Positions 5,900 through 51,623 of a stretch of 64,000 nt of DNA are shown here, in pieces (position 1 is the stretch's first letter; each line of letters starts with the position of its first letter). This DNA comes from Armatimonadota bacterium (GTDB lineage: Bacteria; Armatimonadota; Fimbriimonadia; Fimbriimonadales; Fimbriimonadaceae), in NCBI GenBank assembly GCA_020438215.1, contig JAGQUX010000008.1, positions 1-64,000 on the forward strand, read 5' to 3'. Made by a program: the position numbers and the translations under genes. The notes beneath the pieces are model-generated. The model saw nothing but the letters and a program-made list of their open reading frames with translations. It made no database searches and was not told the origin of the DNA.

Positions 5900-6463
5900 T
5901 CACACCGCCGTGGAAGGAACCTGATACACCACCGGATCAGCTTCAAAGAATGACGCAGGAGTTCCCTTCACAACCAAATTAGAAGGAAACATCTCCAGAA
6001 GATTGTTGTACGCCCGGGCATTGCCATTGTAGAACCGACGAGCGGCGGCAATCCGATCTTCGGTCATGACAAGCTCTTGCTGCAATGCCAGAAAATTCTC
6101 GTTGGCACGGAGTTGGGGATATGCCTCCAAGCGAGCTACCAACTGATTAACGGCTTGGACAAACTCTTTCTCACGGTCGTAGCGGTGATGTTCTGAACGC
6201 AGCTCTTGAACCGCTGCCTCCCGAGCTTCTGCCAACCGTGTGAAGACAGCTTCTTCGTGCTTGGTGACCCCCTTCACCATCTCAACGAGGTTCGGGATGA
6301 GGTCGTGGCGTCGTTTGAGTTGGATTTCAATATTGGAACGGCTCTCGTACAGGTTGTTACGCAATGCCACCCCCCGATTCTGGGTGGCAATCAACCAAAT
6401 CACTGGGAGGATAACGAACGCCGCTAGACAAAATACTGGGGCAATAATTTCCGTGTCCATCAT
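5900..6463 (-). CDS. lemA: LemA family membrane-anchored protein
   Basis: 187 aa from the chosen ATG at 6463, which overlaps the upstream stop as ATGA; a longer reading begins at 6532 but buries this coupling. An N-terminal TM segment (residues about 8-25) is followed by the LemA helical signature: NNLYESRSNIEIQLKRR near 33, then HDLIPNLVEMVKGV near 50, and a long helical bundle with NARAYNNLLEMFPSNLV near the end. LemA function is poorly defined; it often neighbours DUF3137-like membrane proteins, and here two such paralogs precede it in the same operon. Confidence 0.88.
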   Translation of the reverse strand: MMDTEIIAPVFCLAAFVILPVIWLIATQNRGVALRNNLYESRSNIEIQLKRRHDLIPNLVEMVKGVTKHEEAVFTRLAEAREAAVQELRSEHHRYDREKEFVQAVNQLVARLEAYPQLRANENFLALQQELVMTEDRIAAARRFYNGNARAYNNLLEMFPSNLVVKGTPASFFEADPVVYQVPSTAV

Positions 6464-7173
6464 CGTCCGTAATCCTTCCGCAAATAGTCTGGCACGATTG
6501 CTTGAATATCCATCATGTATCGCTCCGCCCAAATAATGAACTGCTCATCCAGCTTCCCGCTCTGGTAGAAGATGAAATCCCCGAGTGAGACTTCAAAATG
6601 CCACATCGGCCATCGCATAAAGAACTCCATCATCTTGGGGGTGAGGAAGTCGTAAGCAAACTTTTCTTGAGGGCTTTGAACAAGGAACCGCTCATTAAAT
6701 TCCGCTGATTCCAACTCAATATCTTGCTTGCCAAACTTCTTAGCGAGCCACAAGAATGTTCCCGCCGGATGCACCCGAAGTGGGGGTGAATAGAAAGGCG
6801 TATCCAAAATTGCCACCTTGTAATTGTAATAATGCGTGTCTTCGCCCGAACCCTCTTCAAACGTATATTCAAAGATCATCAGCTCGCCATGAGGGGTCTG
6901 CTTTCGCATCTCGAAATTGATCTTGCGGTTGTCCCCACGATTGAACAGTTGCACCGTCCCCGCGCCATCTGAGGGCGGCTGCGTTCTCCCGCCGAAGAAA
7001 TCCCACCAGGTGCCATCGAACTGCTTATTGACAACCTCGCCACGGTAAGAGAATCCATGTTTGGCGGCAAGCTGAGCCATATATTCCAGCCGCTTTTGCC
7101 GGGATAGATAAGCAACAATGGAAATCACTCCAAAAATGACCAAAGCCAAGACTATAAACGGCGCAAAATCCAT
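6460..7173 (-). CDS. Membrane-anchored DUF3137-like protein, paralog 2
   Basis: 237 aa. One N-terminal TM helix (about 5-24) is followed by a soluble alpha/beta domain. It shares a recognisable pattern with the preceding gene product: a KHGF or LHGY segment, WW followed by a GA.QAPSDGA-like stretch (TQPPSDGAGTVQLFNRG here), HGELMIFEYTFEEGSG, and a C-terminal IELESAEFNERF then FLTPKMMEF segment. The arrangement next to lemA recalls DUF3137/LemA neighbourhoods in other bacteria, but the family assignment is by eye. It starts 1 nt from the previous gene's stop and ends in an ATGA overlap with lemA, so the three are translationally coupled. Confidence 0.7.
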   Translation of the reverse strand: MDFAPFIVLALVIFGVISIVAYLSRQKRLEYMAQLAAKHGFSYRGEVVNKQFDGTWWDFFGGRTQPPSDGAGTVQLFNRGDNRKINFEMRKQTPHGELMIFEYTFEEGSGEDTHYYNYKVAILDTPFYSPPLRVHPAGTFLWLAKKFGKQDIELESAEFNERFLVQSPQEKFAYDFLTPKMMEFFMRWPMWHFEVSLGDFIFYQSGKLDEQFIIWAERYMMDIQAIVPDYLRKDYGR

Positions 7174-7886
7174 CAGTTGCTCCCACCAAAATCCTGCCGC
7201 ACATACCCCGGAATCCGCTCTAACACTCCGTTCAAATGCCGTTCTGATTCACCCACAAAATCAAGTGACAACTGCCCGGCTTGGTAGATGATGAAATCGC
7301 CATAAACCACTTCCATACTCAAAAATCTCTGACGTAAGCACCACTCCATCATTTCCGGGGTGAGGAAATCAAAGGCAAACCGTTCTTCAGATGCCTTGAC
7401 CACGAACGCCCGATTGAATTCATCGGATTCCAATTCAATATCCTGCATTCCCAGCCCTTTGCCCATGACATGCAGAAATGTCTGGGGATGGATCTCCACC
7501 CTCGGAATGGCGAGCCGTGAATCCAGAATTGCAACCGAGAAAGTGTGCGTCGAGCGATTCTTGCCTGAGCCAGTTGTGAATTGATACTCGAAAATAATGA
7601 GCTCGCCATGTTCTGTTCCTCGGCGGAACTCATAGCGGACGCGGCGGCTAGAACCTCGGTTAAAGAGGCTGACCTCCGCCGCACCATCGGTTGGGGCTTG
7701 GCTTGCTCCGACCAACATCCCCCACCAATCTCCTGTCGTGTTGGTTGGTACCTCTCGCCGGAATGTATAGCCGTGGAGCAAGGCATATTCGGCGAGTTGG
7801 TCACCACGCACCTTCTCAGACCACCACATACCAATAATCAGTCCAGCTATCAGCAGACAAAAAAGTATGAATATTGCGATTTCCAT
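7173..7886 (-). CDS. Membrane-anchored DUF3137-like protein, paralog 1
   Basis: 237 aa from ATG 7886. A GTG at 7934 would extend it by 16 residues, but that start sits upstream of the terminator hairpin of the cyclophilin operon, so the ATG is preferred. One N-terminal TM (about 3-24) then a soluble domain with GDWWGMLVGASQAPTDGA, EHGELIIFEYQF, and DIELESDEFNRAF followed by DFLTPEMMEW, parallel to the next gene. No catalytic motif is evident. It heads a three-gene unit ending in lemA. No Shine-Dalgarno sequence is visible and only 6 nt separate the hairpin base from the ATG region, so how it is transcribed is unclear. Confidence 0.7.
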   Translation of the reverse strand: MEIAIFILFCLLIAGLIIGMWWSEKVRGDQLAEYALLHGYTFRREVPTNTTGDWWGMLVGASQAPTDGAAEVSLFNRGSSRRVRYEFRRGTEHGELIIFEYQFTTGSGKNRSTHTFSVAILDSRLAIPRVEIHPQTFLHVMGKGLGMQDIELESDEFNRAFVVKASEERFAFDFLTPEMMEWCLRQRFLSMEVVYGDFIIYQAGQLSLDFVGESERHLNGVLERIPGYVRQDFGGSN

Positions 7887-7892
7887 GAAACA

Positions 7893-7927
7893 GAAAAGAG
7901 CGGCGAGCTGCTTCAGCCCGCCGCTCT
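7893..7927 (-). terminator. Intrinsic terminator of the cyclophilin operon
   Basis: On the minus strand AGAGCGGCG (7919-7927) pairs with CGCCGCTCT (7897-7905) around a partly paired loop, followed by TTTTCTGTTT. It lies just after the stop of the first cyclophilin gene and immediately before the ATG of the DUF3137-like gene. Confidence 0.85.
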
Positions 7928-7955
7928 CAATCACTCAATACGAGTGGAGCTTCGC

Positions 7956-8510
7956 TTAGGATTCAAGTGGCCAAGTCGTGACCGTAACCTTTTCCATCAC
8001 CGCAGGATTATCCTCAAGCGGATTGTCCCGGTGGTCGCGAGGCAGGTTCACAATCGTCTCAACAACATCCATCCCCTCGATGACTTGCCCGAACACCGAA
8101 TACTGGCGATCCAGGTGCGGGGAGGTTTTGTGCATCAAGAAGAACTGTGAGCCAGCCGAATTCGGATCGGCAGTGCGTGCCGCGCTCAGAATGCCCGGCG
8201 TATGAGGAATCTCATTGAACTCCGCATCGATCGTATAACCTGGGCCACCTGTTCCGTGATATTCACGCGGCATCTCGCGGGAATGCGGGTCGCCGCCCTG
8301 AATCATGAATCCAGGAATCACGCGGTGGAATCGCACACCATCATAGAAGCCTTCGGAAGCCAATTTACGAAAGTTGTTTGCATGACCAGGTGCGTGATCA
8401 TCAAAAAACTTCACGACGATGCGTCCGTGATTAGTTTCTACAACTGCGATTTGATCGCCATCATTCGGGACAACTGCGCCAGGAGCGGCGGTGCTACTCA
8501 GTTCTGCCAT
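7956..8510 (-). CDS. Peptidyl-prolyl cis-trans isomerase, cyclophilin type, cytoplasmic
   Basis: 184 aa. No signal peptide, so probably cytoplasmic. The cyclophilin core is complete: GFYDGVRFHRVIPGFMIQGGDP near 54-75 holds the catalytic Arg and Phe/Met residues, SAGSQFFLM near 117 holds the Gln-Phe-Phe of the active site, and YSVFGQVIEGMDVV near 136 is the C-terminal signature. It speeds proline isomerisation during folding. It starts one base after the stop of the next cyclophilin gene in the operon. The three cyclophilins here are clearly paralogous. Confidence 0.95.
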   Translation of the reverse strand: MAELSSTAAPGAVVPNDGDQIAVVETNHGRIVVKFFDDHAPGHANNFRKLASEGFYDGVRFHRVIPGFMIQGGDPHSREMPREYHGTGGPGYTIDAEFNEIPHTPGILSAARTADPNSAGSQFFLMHKTSPHLDRQYSVFGQVIEGMDVVETIVNLPRDHRDNPLEDNPAVMEKVTVTTWPLES

Positions 8511-8511
8511 G

Positions 8512-9144
8512 TTATTTGCTCACCGGCCATTTTACGACAGCCATCGAATCAATGCTCACGGCGGCGTTCTTAGCCACCTTGCCATTTTGATTGCGATCAC
8601 CGGTTTTCACGATCTTATCAACCACTTCCATCCCGCTCAGAACTCGACCAAACGCCGAGTAGTTTTTGTCCAGCGATGGATAGTCTTTGTGCATGATGAA
8701 GAATTGGCTGGAGGCCGAATTCGGATCTTGGCTTCGCGCCATGCTCACAATCCCGCGCTTGTGCTTGAGATCCGTGAACTCCGCATTGACCGTCACGCGC
8801 TTGCCTTCTTTCTCGTTCCCGCCATAACCCCAAGTCTCGTATTTATCAAGGCTACGAGAATTCGGGTCGCCGCCCTGAATCATGAAGTCTTCAATACAGC
8901 GGTGGAAGCGAATCCCATCGTAAAACCCAGCCTTCGCCAGATCAGAAAAGTTCTTGGCGTGGAGCGGCGCGATGTCCGGGAAAAGCTGGATGACAATGTT
9001 GCCCATGCTGGTTTTCATCACCACGACTTCATCGCCGTTTTTCACGGTCGGAAGCGGGATTTGGTCATCGGTCTGCGCGATGGCCGTTCCCGATAGCACG
9101 GGGCACAGCAGTGCCGTGGCCAAAATCAACCCTTTGGTGAACAT
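8512..9144 (-). CDS. Peptidyl-prolyl cis-trans isomerase, cyclophilin type, exported
   Basis: 210 aa. Residues 1-23 form a classical signal peptide (MFTKGLILATALLCPVLSG then AIAQ), so the mature enzyme should be periplasmic. The cyclophilin core follows: GFYDGIRFHRCIEDFMIQGGDP near 73-94, SASSQFFIMHKD near 144, YSAFGRVLSGMEVVDKI near 162. The His-Arg-Cys version of the catalytic segment is shared with the next paralog. Its start overlaps the preceding gene's stop by one base (TAATG), implying translational coupling. Confidence 0.95.
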   Translation of the reverse strand: MFTKGLILATALLCPVLSGTAIAQTDDQIPLPTVKNGDEVVVMKTSMGNIVIQLFPDIAPLHAKNFSDLAKAGFYDGIRFHRCIEDFMIQGGDPNSRSLDKYETWGYGGNEKEGKRVTVNAEFTDLKHKRGIVSMARSQDPNSASSQFFIMHKDYPSLDKNYSAFGRVLSGMEVVDKIVKTGDRNQNGKVAKNAAVSIDSMAVVKWPVSK

Positions 9145-9851
9145 TATTCGGAGCCACCTGCTGGGGGGTCAATAATGGTTGCCTTCTTCAAGACAATCGC
9201 TTCGTCTGCTTTCACCTTGCCGTTGTCGTTCGGATCACCGGTGACAACAATCTTATCAACGACATCCATTCCGCTGACAACTTCGCCAAACGCAGAGTAT
9301 TGACCGTTCAATCCGGGACTGTCCGCCTGCATGATGAAGAACTGGCTACTCCCGGAATCTGGGCTTTGGCTACGAGCCATCGAAAGGATTCCGCGCTTGT
9401 GGTCAATATCGTTGAACTCAGCCTTGACGTTCTTTTCTAAACCATCAATCATGTTGCCGCCAGTTCCCCACTCAGCGTAGAGGCCAAGATCCTTAGATTT
9501 CGGATCGCCGCACTGAACCATGAAGCCAGGAATGCAACGATGGAATCGCGTTCCATCATAAAAACCGCTCTTGACCAACTCTTTGAAATTTGCAACGTGC
9601 AGGGGAGCCTTTTCGGGGAAGAACTTGACGGTGATGTTGCCCTTATCCGTTTCCAGCAAAACGTACTTGCCATCATCTTCTGGCATCGGAGTTTCTTCCG
9701 CCTTCGCTTCGGAATTGCTCGAAGTATCGGTGCTCGTTTCTGATGATTCACCCAGAACACTATTGCTCGTGTCCGGTTCATTTGAATTACACCCGACAAC
9801 AAATGGGACAAAAAGTAATGTGGCGGCGGGCCACAGCATCCACTTGGACAT
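9144..9851 (-). CDS. Peptidyl-prolyl cis-trans isomerase, cyclophilin type, lipoprotein
   Basis: 235 aa from ATG 9851. An in-frame GTG lies 6 nt upstream, but a CATAAT -10 seven bases before the ATG favours the ATG as a leaderless start. The N-terminus is a lipoprotein signal ending FVPFVVGC, so the protein should be lipid-anchored. A Ser/Thr/Glu-rich linker (about 25-55) leads to the cyclophilin core: GFYDGTRFHRCIPGFMVQCGDP, SGSSQFFIM, and YSAFGEVVSGMDVV. It is the first gene of a three-cyclophilin operon. Confidence 0.93.
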   Translation of the reverse strand: MSKWMLWPAATLLFVPFVVGCNSNEPDTSNSVLGESSETSTDTSSNSEAKAEETPMPEDDGKYVLLETDKGNITVKFFPEKAPLHVANFKELVKSGFYDGTRFHRCIPGFMVQCGDPKSKDLGLYAEWGTGGNMIDGLEKNVKAEFNDIDHKRGILSMARSQSPDSGSSQFFIMQADSPGLNGQYSAFGEVVSGMDVVDKIVVTGDPNDNGKVKADEAIVLKKATIIDPPAGGSE

Positions 9852-9858
9852 GTTCACT

Positions 9859-39568: not shown

Positions 39569-40330
39569 TCAGTTGAGGTGCTTGAGGAATGACTTTGTCG
39601 CAGGATGGAGCTTGAGGATTTCCTGCGCTTCCGGGGAGAGGTTTTGCCAGGCGTTGTTGAACTCAGGCTGGAAGTGCTTCCGAGAGGAAAGAGGGATTGA
39701 GATACTCCCCCAGAGTCCAATCAGTGCGGCTAATCCAGAGACGATGTATATCCACATCAGAATTTCTGGAGGGATTTTCAGCCCAAAGAAAATAAAGAAT
39801 GCCGCAATGGCAATCCCAAGCGCGAAATTGAAACCAATTTGTCCTCGATCGATACACCTGATGCTATAACTTCTGAATACTGCCATAGCATCATCAAAGT
39901 CATCAAATTGCTGGCTAACAACATGGATTGAAGATTTCCGCCAGCCTGCAGGCATCTGCATCACCAAACTCCCATAGTTCTCACTTCGGGTTTGCTTCAG
40001 ATACAGTTGGCTCCCAAAGTCGCCATTGATAGGGTCATCAATTTGGCTCAGGGCAAACCCAGTGTCCTCTTTGCACACCAGCAAGAAATAATCAATGATT
40101 TTGTCTTGCTTGTCCGACGCCCAAGTTTCCAAGCTGAGAGGAATCAGATATAAGAGCATCAACGGAAATACGATGATCATCCGATACGAATAAAACAGTG
40201 AAACAAGGATAATTACTGGCAATACAAAATAGTTGGAGCGAATCATCCACGGATTCCGCCACTTCTCATACTTCCGGAACCGATCAATCTCTTGCTGAAG
40301 CTTCGGGGTGAGTTCTAGTGAATTAGCCAC
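39569..40330 (-). CDS. Four-helix membrane array protein 9 (last)
   Basis: 253 aa from GTG 40330. Near-identical N-terminus to member 8 (LELTPKLQQEIDRFRKYEKW), then TM1 and TM2 (about 30-70), a soluble middle of about 105 residues with KEDTGFALSQIDDPINGDFG, TM3 and TM4 (about 172-220), and a tail with LSPEAQEILKLHP. Function unknown. It overlaps member 8 by 8 nt. Confidence 0.75.
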   Translation of the reverse strand: MANSLELTPKLQQEIDRFRKYEKWRNPWMIRSNYFVLPVIILVSLFYSYRMIIVFPLMLLYLIPLSLETWASDKQDKIIDYFLLVCKEDTGFALSQIDDPINGDFGSQLYLKQTRSENYGSLVMQMPAGWRKSSIHVVSQQFDDFDDAMAVFRSYSIRCIDRGQIGFNFALGIAIAAFFIFFGLKIPPEILMWIYIVSGLAALIGLWGSISIPLSSRKHFQPEFNNAWQNLSPEAQEILKLHPATKSFLKHLN

Positions 40331-41111
40331 CCTTCACCTCGCGCTTGGAAAGGAAAACTGACACACGTCCATCATGTTTAAGAATTGCTTGTAACGGTGA
40401 CGGCAATCCGTTCCATGCAGCATTAAACTCACCCTGCAACGCTTCCCGAGCACTTTTTGGAATCAGGAATGAGCCCATTAGGCCAATAATCGCGGCGAGT
40501 ATTGCGAAGATAAGCACCCATATCTTAGTATCGGAGGCTGGCATTTGAGTGACAGTAGGAAAGATCGCGACCAACCCGAGGATCGCCAGAAACATACAGA
40601 TAAGACTGCCTTCGCTGAACTTCCTATCAACATACTTCTTCAGGATTTCGTTCAGATGTGTGACTTGATTCTCTTCCGCAATCAAAACCTCCAGCGATTG
40701 GTTCCGATGTCCAATGGGCAGTAGCATCGCGGCATCAATCAAGACATTGTCATCGCTTTGCTTGAGCAAAAGGGCTTTCCCGAACTCTCCATTGAGCGCG
40801 TCATCCACGAGACTCAACGCAAAAGACGTGTCTTCCTTGCAATTGAGGAGGAAGTATTCAAGTATTTCGCCTCGTACTTTCTCTGCTTTTCTGTACATGA
40901 AAGCAAGCGTTAACGAGACAGCTAAAACGCCAAGCAATGCAAACTCAGCCCATTTGAAGTAGTGCCCTAAGGGTAGGAGCGCAAACATCAGAATTTGAAA
41001 AAACACGATTATTCGGCTGTCCGCCCACTTCTCATACTTCCGGAACCGATCAATCTCCTGTTGGAGCTTCGGCGTGAGTTCCAGTGGCTTACTTGCTCCT
41101 ATCGAATCCAT
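40323..41111 (-). CDS. Four-helix membrane array protein 8
   Basis: 262 aa from ATG 41111, with GGGAG immediately upstream; a GTG three codons earlier is possible. Same plan as its neighbours: TM1/TM2 at about 32-70, a soluble middle with KEDTSFALSLVDDALNGEFG, TM3/TM4 at about 180-225, and a tail with LPSPLQAILKHDG. It is a recent duplicate of member 9, sharing 20 identical N-terminal residues and matching DNA. Function unknown. It overlaps member 7 by 13 nt. Confidence 0.75.
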   Translation of the reverse strand: MDSIGASKPLELTPKLQQEIDRFRKYEKWADSRIIVFFQILMFALLPLGHYFKWAEFALLGVLAVSLTLAFMYRKAEKVRGEILEYFLLNCKEDTSFALSLVDDALNGEFGKALLLKQSDDNVLIDAAMLLPIGHRNQSLEVLIAEENQVTHLNEILKKYVDRKFSEGSLICMFLAILGLVAIFPTVTQMPASDTKIWVLIFAILAAIIGLMGSFLIPKSAREALQGEFNAAWNGLPSPLQAILKHDGRVSVFLSKREVKGG

Positions 41112-41887
41112 TTCTCCCACCGATTCAGCTCCGACATTCTTCGACCTAACAAAACTATTTCCCTCACTCCATCAGGAAGTCTCTCCAATATCCCCTTGAT
41201 CTCCGCCCAATGTGGTTTGAACGCTCGCCGCTGGATCACCCACGGGGCAAGCAGAAGCAATCCAAACATCAGCACTAACCCAATCGCTCCAAGCACGGCA
41301 AGCAAATTGGTGGACAAAGAATCGATTACGGCTATCAGGATGGTGCTAAGAATCAACGTCAGGACAATGCAGGAAATGCTCCAAATGAGGAGCCGCTTGT
41401 ATGTGCGCTGGTAGCGATTTTCCGGCACAGACAGCGCATTGACTAAGTCCTGCAAAACGGCTTCCTGCTCAGCCATTTTCCTGTAAATCACATCGGTATC
41501 TAGGCGGTCTAGTTGAGAGGCAAAGTAAGCCGCAGCAGACTCACCTCTCAATGCTCTATCGGCCAACTCTTTCTCGAAGAACTCCTTATGACTGCCTTGC
41601 GCCCCATTTAGAATTTCCTCGTCATCTAACTCCATGAGCATGGCAAGGATTTTCTTTGATGGTCGTGGTGAAAAGGGTTGGACGTTTCGATTAGTCAGAA
41701 CAAGAAGCAAGATGAGCAAAGACCTTGCCTCTTGCATGAAGTTGGCGAGCCCAAGGTGATCTCCCCTGATTTTGTCCGGCAGGATATAACAAGCCAAACC
41801 AAGAAGTGCTATGCAGGTAAGTATCCACATAGCAATCATTTGCTGTCGCGCGATTTCGGCTTTGACTTTGGCTAGCTTCTCACTCAT
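41099..41887 (-). CDS. Four-helix membrane array protein 7
   Basis: 262 aa from ATG 41887, overlapping the previous stop as ATGA. TM1/TM2 span about 16-65, the soluble middle (about 70-165) is acidic and helical with SKKILAMLMELDDEEIL, TM3/TM4 lie near 170-215, and the tail carries LERLPDGVREIVLLG. Little residue-level identity to members 8 and 9 is visible; the link rests on shared architecture, length and operon position. Confidence 0.72.
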   Translation of the reverse strand: MSEKLAKVKAEIARQQMIAMWILTCIALLGLACYILPDKIRGDHLGLANFMQEARSLLILLLVLTNRNVQPFSPRPSKKILAMLMELDDEEILNGAQGSHKEFFEKELADRALRGESAAAYFASQLDRLDTDVIYRKMAEQEAVLQDLVNALSVPENRYQRTYKRLLIWSISCIVLTLILSTILIAVIDSLSTNLLAVLGAIGLVLMFGLLLLAPWVIQRRAFKPHWAEIKGILERLPDGVREIVLLGRRMSELNRWEKWIR

Positions 41888-42666
41888 GGGAGTCCTGCCT
41901 CGATCAGTGACTGCACCACTTGACTTTTCTTGAGCGTTGTCAGGATGGGGTCGGACAATGCAACAAGGTGTGGATAGGTGCGCGGCCCGTACTCAGCCAA
42001 CAATGCGCTCTGGCTTCTTTGCGAGGCAATTGCCAAAAAACAGAGCACACCGAAGAAGAGCACAGCTAATATTACAAACACGGGTAGCAGTTCTTTTTTT
42101 GCCGCCTCTGTAAAAAACAGGAGCGCCAACAGAACCCAGCAGAAAGCCAACATCGAGAATATCGTCTTTCTATGCTCATAAATTTCATAGAATCTTTTTC
42201 TGTGTCGCATCTCGGTTTTTGCGATCGCATTGAGATTCTCCCTGTACTTCTCCATCGCCTGAAATTGAAATAAAGACTCCCCTTTGGGAGCAAGGTAGGC
42301 GTAATATGCAAGGCCACCTAACCCTTGCTTGGCTCGCTCGCGGGCGACTTCGTACGCCATTGCACTCGATGGCGTGTCATACAAGCCAACGATTTGCTCA
42401 TCGCTTATCTCTCCGAGAAAGTCAACACACTTCTGGTGATTTTTTGGAATGAGATAAACCCACCAAACAAATGGCGTTGTTGCGATTGTAAAGAAAACCA
42501 GCATTAGCTGATTTTCTGTAAAGAATGGCGTAGTGAGTTTGTCCGCAATGAACCTCGCGCCGATAAAGCCAAGCAGAGATGATGCTGGAAGTATTTTCTT
42601 CTCCAAGTCGAGCCAAAGCCGCAGTCTCTTGGCTTCAGGGCTATTAAGATTGGGCATATCACTCAT
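41884..42666 (-). CDS. Four-helix membrane array protein 6
   Basis: 260 aa from ATG 42666, which overlaps the preceding stop; longer in-frame readings run into the previous gene. TM1/TM2 about 25-70, a soluble middle of about 100 residues with ISDEQIVGLYDTPSSAMAYE and an Ala/Gln-rich helix, TM3/TM4 about 170-215, and a tail including ILTTLKKSQVVQSLIEAG. No known domain is recognised. Confidence 0.72.
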   Translation of the reverse strand: MSDMPNLNSPEAKRLRLWLDLEKKILPASSLLGFIGARFIADKLTTPFFTENQLMLVFFTIATTPFVWWVYLIPKNHQKCVDFLGEISDEQIVGLYDTPSSAMAYEVARERAKQGLGGLAYYAYLAPKGESLFQFQAMEKYRENLNAIAKTEMRHRKRFYEIYEHRKTIFSMLAFCWVLLALLFFTEAAKKELLPVFVILAVLFFGVLCFLAIASQRSQSALLAEYGPRTYPHLVALSDPILTTLKKSQVVQSLIEAGLP

Positions 42667-43486
42667 TCCCGGCCTCCCACATCTTCCGGGCGTAAGCGTT
42701 CGCAATAACTCGATGCAAAGCCTCATCCGGCAAGGAGTCAAACACCGGTTTGAACTTCAAGCCCATCTCCCGATACTTGTTTCCTAACCATTTGGCGTAC
42801 AGTATCCAACCCACCACGCCCGAAATCACAAGTGCAAGGAACCCGAGCACCCACAATAAATCATCGACAAAGCCGTGTGTCGCGCCGTATGTCACCCACC
42901 AAGTGGTGAGGGCGACAAAGACAATCAGAGGGGTAAGCCAAATTTTCAAAGGTATTCCACGCGCAATCGTCCGATCCTCGAACTTTGAAACCGCCTGCGC
43001 TATTGGCCCGATCTCCACATCAAACGGCTTCAGGATTTCGTAAGCGTCTTCGTTCTCCATGTATATGGAGGATTGAGCAAAGTACATCGCTCCAAACTTT
43101 CCAGCCCAGTGTTTGAGCAAGTCGTGAGCCAAAAAGCAGAAACGTGGATGCTCTCGCAATCCAAAGAACACCTCTCCGCGCAATTCAACTCCGTGCGGTT
43201 CTAAAGCGTTCAGCATCTTCCTATTGAAGTTTCGTTCCAAAAGAATTACGCCAATTGCACCCGAGAGGATAATGATATAGAGGATCTCTCCCCAGCCAGC
43301 GTCTCGCACTTCCCTATTGATTGTGCTGCCAATAAAAATCATTAACATATAGAAGGCTCCGAAACGGTTAACCACTTTCCTCCACCTAAGAAAACCCTTG
43401 ACTGCCTTCGACTCAAGTGTCGCTGCAAGCTCTGGAGAGAGGGGAGGCATCACCGCTTGATCGATTTCTTCACTTTTGACTGGCAC
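42659..43486 (-). CDS. Four-helix membrane array protein 5
   Basis: 275 aa from GTG 43486. GAGGAGG lies 7 nt upstream, a strong ribosome-binding site inside the previous coding region. N-terminus PPLSPELAATLESKAVKGFLRW, TM1/TM2 about 38-85, a soluble middle with LREHPRFCFLAHDLLKHW and AQAVSKFEDRTIARG, TM3/TM4 about 175-225, and a tail with FDSLPDEALHRVIANAYA. Function unknown. Confidence 0.74.
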   Translation of the reverse strand: MPVKSEEIDQAVMPPLSPELAATLESKAVKGFLRWRKVVNRFGAFYMLMIFIGSTINREVRDAGWGEILYIIILSGAIGVILLERNFNRKMLNALEPHGVELRGEVFFGLREHPRFCFLAHDLLKHWAGKFGAMYFAQSSIYMENEDAYEILKPFDVEIGPIAQAVSKFEDRTIARGIPLKIWLTPLIVFVALTTWWVTYGATHGFVDDLLWVLGFLALVISGVVGWILYAKWLGNKYREMGLKFKPVFDSLPDEALHRVIANAYARKMWEAGNE

Positions 43487-44219
43487 GCTCTAACCTCCTC
43501 ACCGTACTATCTTTCCGCAGAATCTCCTTGATATCATCCCGCAATCCAGAAAAGTGCTCTTGAAACTGAGCCAGCCTTTCCTCATTGATTTGGTCACGGC
43601 TCAATAACCAAAAATACGCCCCGATCAACAACAAAAATATGATTGCGGCACCCGGCACAAACACATCCAGCAATCGCTTCGGGGCAAATCTCAACGTGAG
43701 TCCGAGGACTGGTATCGATAAGCATCCCAGCCAACCGATCCACCTCGATGGCCCCTTCGGATCTCTATCCACCTTGACGTTCCGCACAACCTTGCCGACA
43801 GCATTCACCAGACCCTCTTGTTCCACCAATTGGTGGGCCACTGGTTCCCTTTCTTTGTGCTGATTCGCAAAGTACCAAACGTATCCCGCTCCGTGTTCAT
43901 ATTGTTCGGCGGCAAGATGCTCTAAGAACAGCTTGTGTTCCTTCCCGGGAAGGAGTTCCTTGTGGACCGCTTCATCGAATTCGGTTGCCTCTTTCCAATT
44001 GAGTTCGTATTGAGAAACCCGCTTACGCAAATGGCCACTTATTACAAAATAGATGATCGCCAGCACCACATAGAATAATTTTTCACCGATTGGAGCCTGG
44101 TCTAGAGTTTTGAAAAGACTGAATATAGCCATGATCGGAAAGACAGCAAATGCGCGAAAATACTGCTCTCGCCACGCCCAGCGACCGTACTCCTTTGCCC
44201 GGATTGACCAATCACTCAC
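43470..44219 (-). CDS. Four-helix membrane array protein 4
   Basis: 249 aa from GTG 44219 (GTGA overlap with the upstream stop). TM1/TM2 about 20-65, a soluble middle with KELLPGKEHKLFLEHLAAEQYEHG, TM3/TM4 about 165-210, and a tail with LRDDIKEILRKDSTVRRLE. The lysine-rich end overlaps member 5 by 17 nt. Function unknown. Confidence 0.73.
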   Translation of the reverse strand: MSDWSIRAKEYGRWAWREQYFRAFAVFPIMAIFSLFKTLDQAPIGEKLFYVVLAIIYFVISGHLRKRVSQYELNWKEATEFDEAVHKELLPGKEHKLFLEHLAAEQYEHGAGYVWYFANQHKEREPVAHQLVEQEGLVNAVGKVVRNVKVDRDPKGPSRWIGWLGCLSIPVLGLTLRFAPKRLLDVFVPGAAIIFLLLIGAYFWLLSRDQINEERLAQFQEHFSGLRDDIKEILRKDSTVRRLERASQK

Positions 44220-45022
44220 TGCGCACTCTCCGGGGTCACCATGATATGCGGATCGAAGGGATACAGAGCCAAAAGAGCCGCCTTCGCTTCCTGACTGAGC
44301 GGCTCGCTCAGCCGCTTTAGCTCTTCAATATCAGACGCAATACTGCGCTCCTCAATCCTCTGGCTCCAATAGAACATCGCCAGTATCGTCCCGGCGATCA
44401 CGAGCCATATCAAGAACCCGGCGAACTCCCACATCAGACCGATAAAAAACAAAACCAAGAGGAGTGGCAACCCCACCCAGACAATTGCCAACCGCGCGAT
44501 TTTGTGCCAGTGAGTCACCCGCCGGATACGCCATGCCGGAGCCTGCATTTCGCGAACCTGGTTTTCAAAGGGTACCAATGCATCCCACCGCCGCCCGAAA
44601 GACTTCGGCCAACCGGCAATCGCCATCCCCCATGCGCCAATTTCTTGCTGATGCTCAAAGCGAGTAAGCATCACCCAGTGGGCGGTTTCTGAAACCCAGC
44701 CATCGTCTCGGCATTCGCGGAGTTCCTCTTCCGTCCACACTTCTGCGGCCTGGTACAGCCGCTTCACAGAAAGTCGGTAGAGCAACCAAAGCACTCCGCT
44801 CAGGAGCGCGAGCACGAGAATCGCAGTCCAGAATATTGCTTCTACAGATTCAAAAACGACATCTTCGTGAGGTGTCATTCTCAGCGGGAAATAGCCGAGT
44901 GAGGAGAATGCAAGCCCTAGAAAGCCGATGAGTTTTGTGAGCCGCCAGAATCCCCGTGCGCTTTTCCCGAAGAACAAACACAGACGGGTCAGCTTTCGCA
45001 GTTGGGAACGATCCGATTTCAA
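44216..45022 (-). CDS. Four-helix membrane array protein 3
   Basis: 268 aa from TTG 45022, which overlaps the upstream stop as TTGA. The N-terminus is basic, TM1/TM2 span about 30-85, the middle has WTEEELRECRDDGWVSE and an Arg/Trp-rich second half, TM3/TM4 lie near 180-225, and the tail has LSQEAKAALLALYPFDP, very like the LSPEAQEILKLHP tail of member 9. That tail similarity supports common descent. Confidence 0.72.
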   Translation of the reverse strand: MKSDRSQLRKLTRLCLFFGKSARGFWRLTKLIGFLGLAFSSLGYFPLRMTPHEDVVFESVEAIFWTAILVLALLSGVLWLLYRLSVKRLYQAAEVWTEEELRECRDDGWVSETAHWVMLTRFEHQQEIGAWGMAIAGWPKSFGRRWDALVPFENQVREMQAPAWRIRRVTHWHKIARLAIVWVGLPLLLVLFFIGLMWEFAGFLIWLVIAGTILAMFYWSQRIEERSIASDIEELKRLSEPLSQEAKAALLALYPFDPHIMVTPESAQ

Positions 45023-45843
45023 GCCGTCACCTCCCTGGCTTTCTGATTGATCTCGAGCATCTTTCCCAACTCCGGCACATTACGGAGGAGTCTCTTCTGC
45101 TCCTCATCCAATTGGTGAAAATCGTCGAGGGTAAGCGATCGCGCATGTTTGGTGAAGGCAACCTGAGTTCGCCATTGAAAGAACGATTTTGCGACAAATG
45201 CAATAAGGAGTGACAGGGGCAAATAGTGACCGAAGTAGCCCTCCATCGGCTGAATCCTCCAGATCATGAGGACAAGCGGCATGAGGCTGATCAGCAACAG
45301 GATGTACGCGGCTATCAACCAGCTATTCAGTTGCTTTCTCTTAGTTCCAGCACCCTCAAAATCCGCCAGCACCGAAGCCACTGCGGCCCCATTATCAACC
45401 AGGCAGTGATAAGAATCTTCTGGCTCAAGCGGGTCGGCAGCAAGACTGACTTCTTCTAAAGTGGAAATATCAGCCACTCTTGAACGGGAAATTGCGATTC
45501 TGACCGCGGCTTCTTTCTCCCACTTTCCCTGCCCTGCCAATTCCAGTAACTGACTTCCAGTGTATTTCCGTCCTAGCCTTCGGACAATGAAGTCATCAAT
45601 GAAGCGAACTTTGAGAATTGAGAAAGGGACCCCGGCGATGACGGTCAAAATAAGGATCGCGAGAATTGCATTTACGACCGGCCCGAAGGCTTCCTTGTCT
45701 GTTTGGAAGGCAAATGCAACGAAAGCCACCGCAACAAGGGCCAGCATTGAAGCAACGCCTAGAAAGCCCAATGTCGCGTTATCTAGCGATTCCCAAGCCA
45801 CCGCTACCCGCGTCCAAAATCGGAGCGACTTACTGATGGGCAA
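45019..45843 (-). CDS. Four-helix membrane array protein 2
   Basis: 274 aa from TTG 45843, chosen because GAGGAGG lies 6 nt upstream; an ATG at 45858 coincides with that ribosome-binding site. TM1/TM2 about 25-85, a soluble middle with YTGSQLLELAGQGKWEKE and a helical DNGAAVASVLADFEG, TM3/TM4 about 180-230, tail with LDEEQKRLLRNVPELGKMLE. Function unknown. It is coupled to members 1 and 3 by overlaps. Confidence 0.7.
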   Translation of the reverse strand: MPISKSLRFWTRVAVAWESLDNATLGFLGVASMLALVAVAFVAFAFQTDKEAFGPVVNAILAILILTVIAGVPFSILKVRFIDDFIVRRLGRKYTGSQLLELAGQGKWEKEAAVRIAISRSRVADISTLEEVSLAADPLEPEDSYHCLVDNGAAVASVLADFEGAGTKRKQLNSWLIAAYILLLISLMPLVLMIWRIQPMEGYFGHYLPLSLLIAFVAKSFFQWRTQVAFTKHARSLTLDDFHQLDEEQKRLLRNVPELGKMLEINQKAREVTA

Positions 45844-46654
45844 CGCTCGCCTCCTCATTCAGTATCTCCTTCGGCATGTACTTGGTGAAAATTTCAAGAC
45901 TGGTGAGGTGGTGCCGCATCCCGAACGGCAATGCAAAAACCTTAGTGCGAATTGAATCATAAAGTTCCGGCTCCACTTTCTTGACGAGTCGTTTGTCCAA
46001 GTATCCCTGCAAGCTCATGATTGCTAAAAATGGGAAGACACCTAGCAAGATCGACTTACCATCGAAGTCCGGCGTTGCCACGCCTATTGCAATCAAGATA
46101 GCAACTATGATTACCAGGCTTATGTTTCGGTTCCGCTTGTGCTTTGAGGTGGGCGTGATGATCTGATGCACGCGATACAACTCAGCAAAAATCTCGCAGA
46201 TATCCCGCTCCAACACCCGAGCATTCTGCCAATCGGCATCGTTTATTGCCCCAAACGGTCGCTCCACAAACATCTCGTAGCTCACCGGGAGTCCCTTCTC
46301 AAACCGGCGAACAAAGAATAGGTTGATGAGCCGTGCTGCGTGCCAATTCTCAGCGAGGGCTAGGATGCTTTCCGTATCAATTTGTTCTGCATCTTCGGCA
46401 AGCTTCTCAACTTTGTTTTGCTGCAAACCTTCGATATGCCACCCAGCGAGCATAATGATGGGCACTACTAGTCCAATGCAAATAACCCACCAAGCAATGC
46501 CGTTGAAACGAGAATAGTAAAGCGACCCAACAAATGTGATCCCGATGACCAAAGGAATCACCACCATCCAAGGGCTATCTTTGAACGCTTGCCACTTCCC
46601 CTCCTTTCGCATAAGCTCCCTTAGCTCCGCTTCAACATTCTCTTTCTTCTCCAC
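45830..46654 (-). CDS. Four-helix membrane array protein 1 (first)
   Basis: 274 aa from GTG 46654. A charged N-terminal helix (KENVEAELRELMRKEGKW) precedes TM1/TM2 (about 32-75). The soluble middle has DTESILALAENWHAARL and an Ala/Asp region, TM3/TM4 lie near 185-225, and the tail has LPFGMRHHLTSLEIFTKYMPKEIL. No Shine-Dalgarno sequence is strong. It opens the array, with a 244-bp intergenic region upstream that holds a possible structured RNA on the other strand. Confidence 0.72.
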   Translation of the reverse strand: MEKKENVEAELRELMRKEGKWQAFKDSPWMVVIPLVIGITFVGSLYYSRFNGIAWWVICIGLVVPIIMLAGWHIEGLQQNKVEKLAEDAEQIDTESILALAENWHAARLINLFFVRRFEKGLPVSYEMFVERPFGAINDADWQNARVLERDICEIFAELYRVHQIITPTSKHKRNRNISLVIIVAILIAIGVATPDFDGKSILLGVFPFLAIMSLQGYLDKRLVKKVEPELYDSIRTKVFALPFGMRHHLTSLEIFTKYMPKEILNEEASVAHQ

Positions 46655-46697
46655 CTTGTTTCCCTGTCAAAATATTGTAATTGATTTCGACTCTCAA

Positions 46698-51268: not shown

Positions 51269-51623
51269 TGGTGGAGGCGCCGGGAATTGAACCCGGTTCC
51301 AAAACTGTCGTTACCAAAGTATCCACGAGCGTCTCCTCCACAACTATTTCTCGGCGGTGGACTCTCCGGGAGGCAGGCTGTCCACTCGCTCAACTCGATT
51401 GATTTCGCTGGAGGGCCCCGAGCAGAGATCCTCTTCGCTATTCGTCATTTACGACGCCTTAATCAAACCAGGACGAAACCGTTTTGACCGGCGCGCTGCG
51501 CTAATTAGGCAGCGTATGCAAAATTATCTTCTGCAGTTGTTTTTTTGCCGCTTTTGACAAGGCCAGCGGCGCCTTGGCTCGCAACTCTAGCGCGATCCAG
51601 CTCTGTCGAAACCTTACGCCCCC
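51269..51623 (-). ncRNA. ssrA: Transfer-messenger RNA (tmRNA)
   Basis: 355 nt. The 5' GGGGGCG (51617-51623 in reverse) pairs with the 3' CGCCTCC before ACCA at 51269-51279, giving the acceptor stem. The 3' side contains GGTTCAATTCCCGG, the T arm. The 5' end continues AAGGTTTCGACAG, the usual tmRNA beginning. The tag reading frame ends AEDNFAYAA before TAA at 51505-51507; the resume codon is uncertain (GGC or AAA region), so the tag could be about 14-16 residues (for example starting GKKTT). A long open frame over the same bases is only the tag frame extended upstream. Confidence 0.95.

Follow-up and report, generated by a model that had tools for sequence, protein, structure and literature searches.

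Strings of membrane immunity genes are the closest described parallels to the gene array analysed here. Staphylococcus aureus carries strings of up to 11 variable tsaI genes, which encode membrane immunity proteins of the DUF443 family, with 11 copies in RN6390 (PMC9484751). The toxin gene tspA adjoins the tsaI strings; their products are conserved over the first ~75 residues, and the intergenic regions vary. The immunity proteins for CDI ionophore toxins, which protect the membrane against ionophores, are highly polymorphic, with about 30% identity within a group (PMC11630599), and there is one of them per cdiA gene. EsaG (DUF600) and TipC immunity strings consist of tandem paralogues that recombine via conserved blocks at the gene ends (PMC9484751).

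We analysed a 64,000-nucleotide stretch (the window) of contig C108, part of a 2.64-Mb, 99%-complete genome of an Armatimonadota bacterium (class Fimbriimonadia), in which nine consecutive genes (g1 to g9) encode membrane proteins of one plan. Like the tsaI strings, the array is a tandem run of variable paralogous membrane proteins, but it has no toxin alongside, its genes overlap and its paralogues are only 13-17% identical. A Pfam search gave no DUF443 match for any of the nine proteins at E up to 5. Because there is neither an adjacent toxin nor a DUF443 match, membership of DUF443 fails, and the proposal is limited to a similar mode of action. Compared with the single immunity gene per cdiA gene, the array has nine genes in tandem, and no sequence link to the CDI immunity proteins was found. 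Recombination at the gene ends of EsaG and TipC recalls a tract shared by the 5' ends of g8 and g9, although EsaG and TipC paralogues are much closer to each other than those of the array and belong to other families.

Results

Nine intact, overlapping genes occupy 39569-46654 of the window. All nine ORFs that an earlier note on this DNA had listed on the minus strand are present, consecutive, and, with our preferred starts, of the length it gave (249-279 aa). The first gene, g1 (45830-46654), has a GTG start and encodes 274 aa, laid out as two transmembrane (TM) helices, 106 residues, two TM helices and a tail; hydropathy places the helices at residues 27-45, 52-70, 177-195 and 201-219. It is followed on the same strand by g2 (45019-45858, ATG start, 279 aa), g3 (44216-45022, TTG, 268 aa), g4 (43470-44219, GTG, 249 aa), g5 (42659-43486, GTG, 275 aa), g6 (41884-42666, ATG, 260 aa), g7 (41099-41887, ATG, 262 aa), g8 (40323-41120, GTG, 265 aa) and the last gene, g9 (39569-40330, GTG, 253 aa). 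For g6, the ATG at 42666, giving the 260 aa, was preferred over the TTG at 42741 of the ORF list. Overlaps of 4-17 nt had been described at almost all junctions; overlap in fact occurs at all eight, and its spread is wider, 4-29 nt (29, 4, 4, 17, 8, 4, 22 and 8 nt in order from g1/g2 to g8/g9). Purine-rich motifs resembling ribosome-binding sites can be seen by eye just 5' of the starts, for g2-g9 within the preceding gene. A consensus scan returned a candidate weak sigma-70-like promoter, TTGAGA-17-TATTTT, on the minus strand at 46669-46697, 15 nt upstream of the g1 start codon. No terminator was recognised 3' of g9, and no RNA families at 36-50 kb of the window. We infer one promoter for the array, and coupled translation from a single message would be plausible. 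No pseudogene or recent duplicate was seen among the nine genes, so birth-and-death turnover is not visible.

In the shared architecture of the proteins, a helical middle of 93-106 residues separates two pairs of TM helices, and a tail follows the second pair. This common plan, claimed from the letters alone, was recovered in 8 of 9 array proteins by one strict rule with fixed length and spacing criteria on hydropathy, compared with 0 of 319 other ORFs from the window and from neighbouring or syntenic loci. Only g6 fails the rule; its first TM helix is of low hydrophobicity. Close to the TM helices, the short loops contain 0-2 Lys and Arg residues, and the N-terminal, middle and tail segments 10-15; these segments are also longer than the loops, yet the direction is identical in all nine proteins. 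Because these positive-inside counts agree in every case, a cytosolic location is the most likely one for all three segments. AlphaFold2, with the other eight array proteins as alignment input, predicted g8 to be all-helical, with two long hairpins, a middle of short helices, and tail helices (pLDDT 72.7, pTM 0.58); helices 58-93, 150-191 and 195-237 of the model exceed the length of a membrane crossing. The prediction for g1 was also all-helical, with a helix order similar to that of g8, at low confidence (57.5). As for the tail, the proposed LP/LS-x-E amphipathic helix is significant in g4-g9 but fails the tail-motif test in g1-g3.

Homology within the array is graded. The suggestion of a diversified paralog family is borne out for g4-g9 by leave-one-out profile tests and weakly for g2-g3, but not for g1 by sequence. 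BLAST within the array linked g8 to g9 (3e-43) and g4 to g8 (2e-4), all other pairs being weak. In leave-one-out HMM searches, with controls shuffled in 20-residue blocks so that the hydrophobic pattern was preserved, g4, g5, g6, g7, g8 and g9 were supported, g3 was marginal, and g1 and g2 failed. The scores against the shuffle maximum were 29.7 versus 14.4 bits for g4, 14.5 versus 7.1 for g5, 24.6 versus 10.2 for g6 and 30.3 versus 19.0 for g7. In profile-profile comparison (hhalign), g2 scored 16.7, where the best of 40 shuffles reached 11.0, and g3 scored 22.4 (shuffle maximum 15.8); g9 was still detected with g8 left out (22.7 against 11.8). The score of g1 (8.6) lay below its shuffle maximum of 13.2, and g1 beat shuffled controls in no test. 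Pairwise Z-scores resolve the subgroups g2-g3 (Z 4.9 for the pair), g4-g7 and g8-g9. Nearer genes tend to be more alike (Mantel r=-0.30, p=0.02, g8-g9 pair included), as tandem duplication predicts. On these comparisons g4-g9 can firmly be assigned to one family, and g2 and g3 probably belong to it; g1 is counted as a member by plan and position only.

The middle was also examined for the divergence that had been taken to suggest different ligands. In g4-g7 it is as conserved as the membrane parts (18.7% identity, compared with 15.4% in TM1-2 and 25.2% in TM3-4), and over all nine proteins it is only slightly lower (14.3% versus 15.6% and 17.9%). Since identity there is comparable to that of the TM regions in g4-g7, the middle is not specially divergent, and the idea of different ligands drawn from it gains no support. 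Neither duplication of one hairpin into two within the array proteins nor descent of the array from the neighbouring 2TM family (PF13239) gave a signal above shuffles, except for one isolated paralogue (9.3 bits; best shuffle 8.3).

That family is encoded on the same contig, where five consecutive minus-strand genes at C108:65412-68066 (positions 1412-4066 of L050, C108:64001-80000) form a second tandem membrane family. One gene has the Pfam 2TM domain PF13239 at 65 bits, and the rest are 24-33% identical to it. Each other member of the genus has 1-3 matching places, which makes this an older genus-wide family, expanded here. It resembles the array as a set of tandem membrane paralogues but differs in size (168-202 aa), in its one hairpin and in its conservation across the genus. 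Elsewhere in the window, three consecutive peptidyl-prolyl isomerase-like genes, of cyclophilin type by eye, stand in tandem at 7956-9857. Two consecutive paralogous membrane proteins, the second-listed of which matches DUF3137, are encoded at 6460-7934, upstream of a LemA family gene. A tmRNA gene with the tag AEDNFAYAA lies on the minus strand at 51269-51623.

The pair g8/g9, previously described as two recent copies, turns out to be only 34-37% identical, with synonymous sites saturated outside a 67-nt tract. Outside the tract the same codon is used at 22 of 63 identical residues, compared with 22.8 expected from codon usage. The tract itself, at 41025-41091 in g8 and 40259-40325 in g9 (both minus strand), is 90% identical, and its 19 identical residues share their codon 14 times versus 7.8 expected (p=0.0024). 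By this codon evidence, g8/g9 is an old duplication followed by later partial gene conversion at the 5' end.

A nine-protein profile matched only these nine genes in their own genome. It found nothing in the 7 other genomes of the genus, nothing in the family and order, and nothing convincing in the 290 other genomes of the phylum (291 with its own); the search covered the organism's own phylum and would miss any member that diverges as far as g1. The same gene array is thus absent from these related genomes, which makes it unlikely to be core machinery. Weak matches at C31, L002, L012, L013, L014 and L015 proved to be short and to lie in unrelated proteins or wrong frames. Single-protein or g8/g9-pair queries, whose reach is limited to close relatives, found nothing in GTDB contigs, viral contigs, plasmids or phages.

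The impression that the proteins belong to no known family held up, with no match over cut-off in Pfam, NCBIfam, PHROGs or PADLOC and none in PDB sequences; nor did profile searches place the genes in unrelated known families. Fold searches of PDB and viral structures gave no significant match. The C-terminal domain of DUF2207 was weakly matched in Pfam by 6 of 9 proteins, at best at 21.7 bits against a cut-off of 33, and hhalign gave a probability of 0.6% to the DUF2207-like protein (annotated by eye) of the window itself; on this profile-profile result the link was dropped. SLATT 2TM effectors scored 13.5-14.2 bits in NCBIfam against a cut-off of 45-55, with no PADLOC match, and both SLATT and holin matches, below cut-off, span one TM hairpin only. 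ABC exporter membrane domains came top in Foldseek, with E >= 0.16 and TM-scores of 0.15-0.29 among the matches listed, and are a long-helix artefact. A viral origin was rejected, there being no relative among viral folds, PHROGs, phages or viral contigs. The array is a new species-restricted membrane-protein family in tandem.

The array is flanked by an EAL gene and a methyltransferase gene. In relatives whose sequence is contiguous here, sufS lies upstream of the EAL gene of an EAL-DAGK-msrB block, and a methyltransferase-fabI-ftcD-purK block is about 35-40 kb away. In this genome the EAL block and the methyltransferase-fabI block are joined with the array between them, and sufS is on another contig, C43 (L066). 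The gene directly upstream of sufS there, at 6148-7347, is predicted by eye to encode a cytosine-5 DNA methyltransferase; genus relatives have EAL in that place, and this is the other side of the rearrangement. Because the blocks are joined around the array and sufS is elsewhere, the array marks a rearrangement junction that is absent from the genus relatives. Together, this site and the restriction to one species favour accessory, fast-evolving genes over core machinery. At 0.53-0.63, GC3 in the nine genes falls inside the spread seen in neighbouring genes, and their codon composition is host-like, so that nothing in the composition points to recent import. Contamination of the contig is made less likely by the genus-level orthologues of the flanking genes.

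An RHS locus was found in the same genome, at 5284-9667 of C27:40000-56000 (L073). A 574-aa RHS protein is followed there by two ORFs, at 7010-8155 and 8576-9667, with a near-identical RHS core start (MALKKRYYSLNGQILGEHDV...) and different C-terminal ends; the pair resembles a displaced toxin-tip arrangement. With at least one RHS-repeat locus in the genome, polymorphic-toxin-like genes may exist in the lineage.

Discussion

Function here is a matter of inference, and we slightly favour immunity-like proteins over one hetero-oligomer. By analogy with the strings of membrane immunity genes, we tentatively read the array as encoding immunity-like membrane proteins, each with a specificity of its own, that would serve self-protection. 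These species-restricted tandem paralogues would be translated from one polycistronic, coupled message into the inner membrane, where each protein would hold two helical hairpins in the membrane and keep its N-terminus, helical middle and tail in the cytosol. Each would meet its own membrane-acting partner or toxin, non-redundantly, as in those strings; individual specificity and a role in self-protection are presumed for every member. The tsaI strings (PMC9484751) and the CDI ionophore immunity proteins (PMC11630599) are precedents. Consistent with this reading are the shared plan (8 of 9 versus 0 of 319), the homology of g4-g9 and, more weakly, of g2-g3, the absence of the array from the 7 other genus members and the 290 other phylum genomes searched, a rearrangement junction typical of accessory genes, and the sign that paralogues have recombined in the 5' part of the otherwise saturated g8/g9 pair. 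However, no toxin gene adjoins the array, its members are far more divergent than those of typical immunity strings, and turnover is not visible. PADLOC, Pfam and NCBIfam immunity models gave no match, and the only RHS locus found in the genome has no array-type protein in the stretch after it.

The nine proteins might instead be subunits of one hetero-oligomeric membrane complex, duplicated and then no longer interchangeable. This is possible, if still on the unlikely side, and comes close to self-protection in likelihood because the nine genes are intact, old and overlapping. Every junction overlaps, by 4-29 nt, the synonymous saturation of g8/g9 points to old duplications, and the long helices predicted for g8 leave the membrane and could pack with neighbours. 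Against this, the machinery of complexes is usually conserved across a genus, whereas the array is absent from 7 of 7 other members, and overlaps are common in this genome, for example among the nuo genes. A previously undescribed hetero-oligomer, found so far in one species and built from nine paralogous four-helix proteins whose stalks lie in the cytosol, appears improbable.

The array could also be an accessory operon, either acquired or vertically kept here and lost elsewhere, for membrane sensors or modulators of transport, each with a divergent function of its own and no part in conflict. We consider this rather unlikely. The array is species-restricted and at a rearrangement junction, its GC3 indicates long residence in this or a similar genome, and the small 2TM proteins on the same contig show that the lineage expands membrane genes. 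Yet no ligand-binding, enzymatic or transport family is recognisable in the nine proteins, and a donor was not found. It is doubtful that only g4-g9 form one family and that g1-g3 are unrelated membrane proteins of similar size, alike by convergence, as the failures of g1-g3 in the tail-motif test, of g1 against every shuffled control, and of g2 and, marginally, g3 in the leave-one-out searches might suggest, given that length, TM spacing and overlaps match the rest, that the plan is unique to the array among the ORFs compared, and that in profile-profile comparison no shuffle reaches the score of g2 or g3.

Nine intact membrane paralogues of ancient divergence, without a detectable relative even in the genus, are hard to fit to normal vertical descent. 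The array shows that a whole operon can be missed by profile libraries, and it offers a clean case for asking how orphan membrane families arise. It also lets one ask whether strings of this kind are self-protection repertoires that have gone unrecognised, and whether operons of paralogues can form species-specific membrane complexes.
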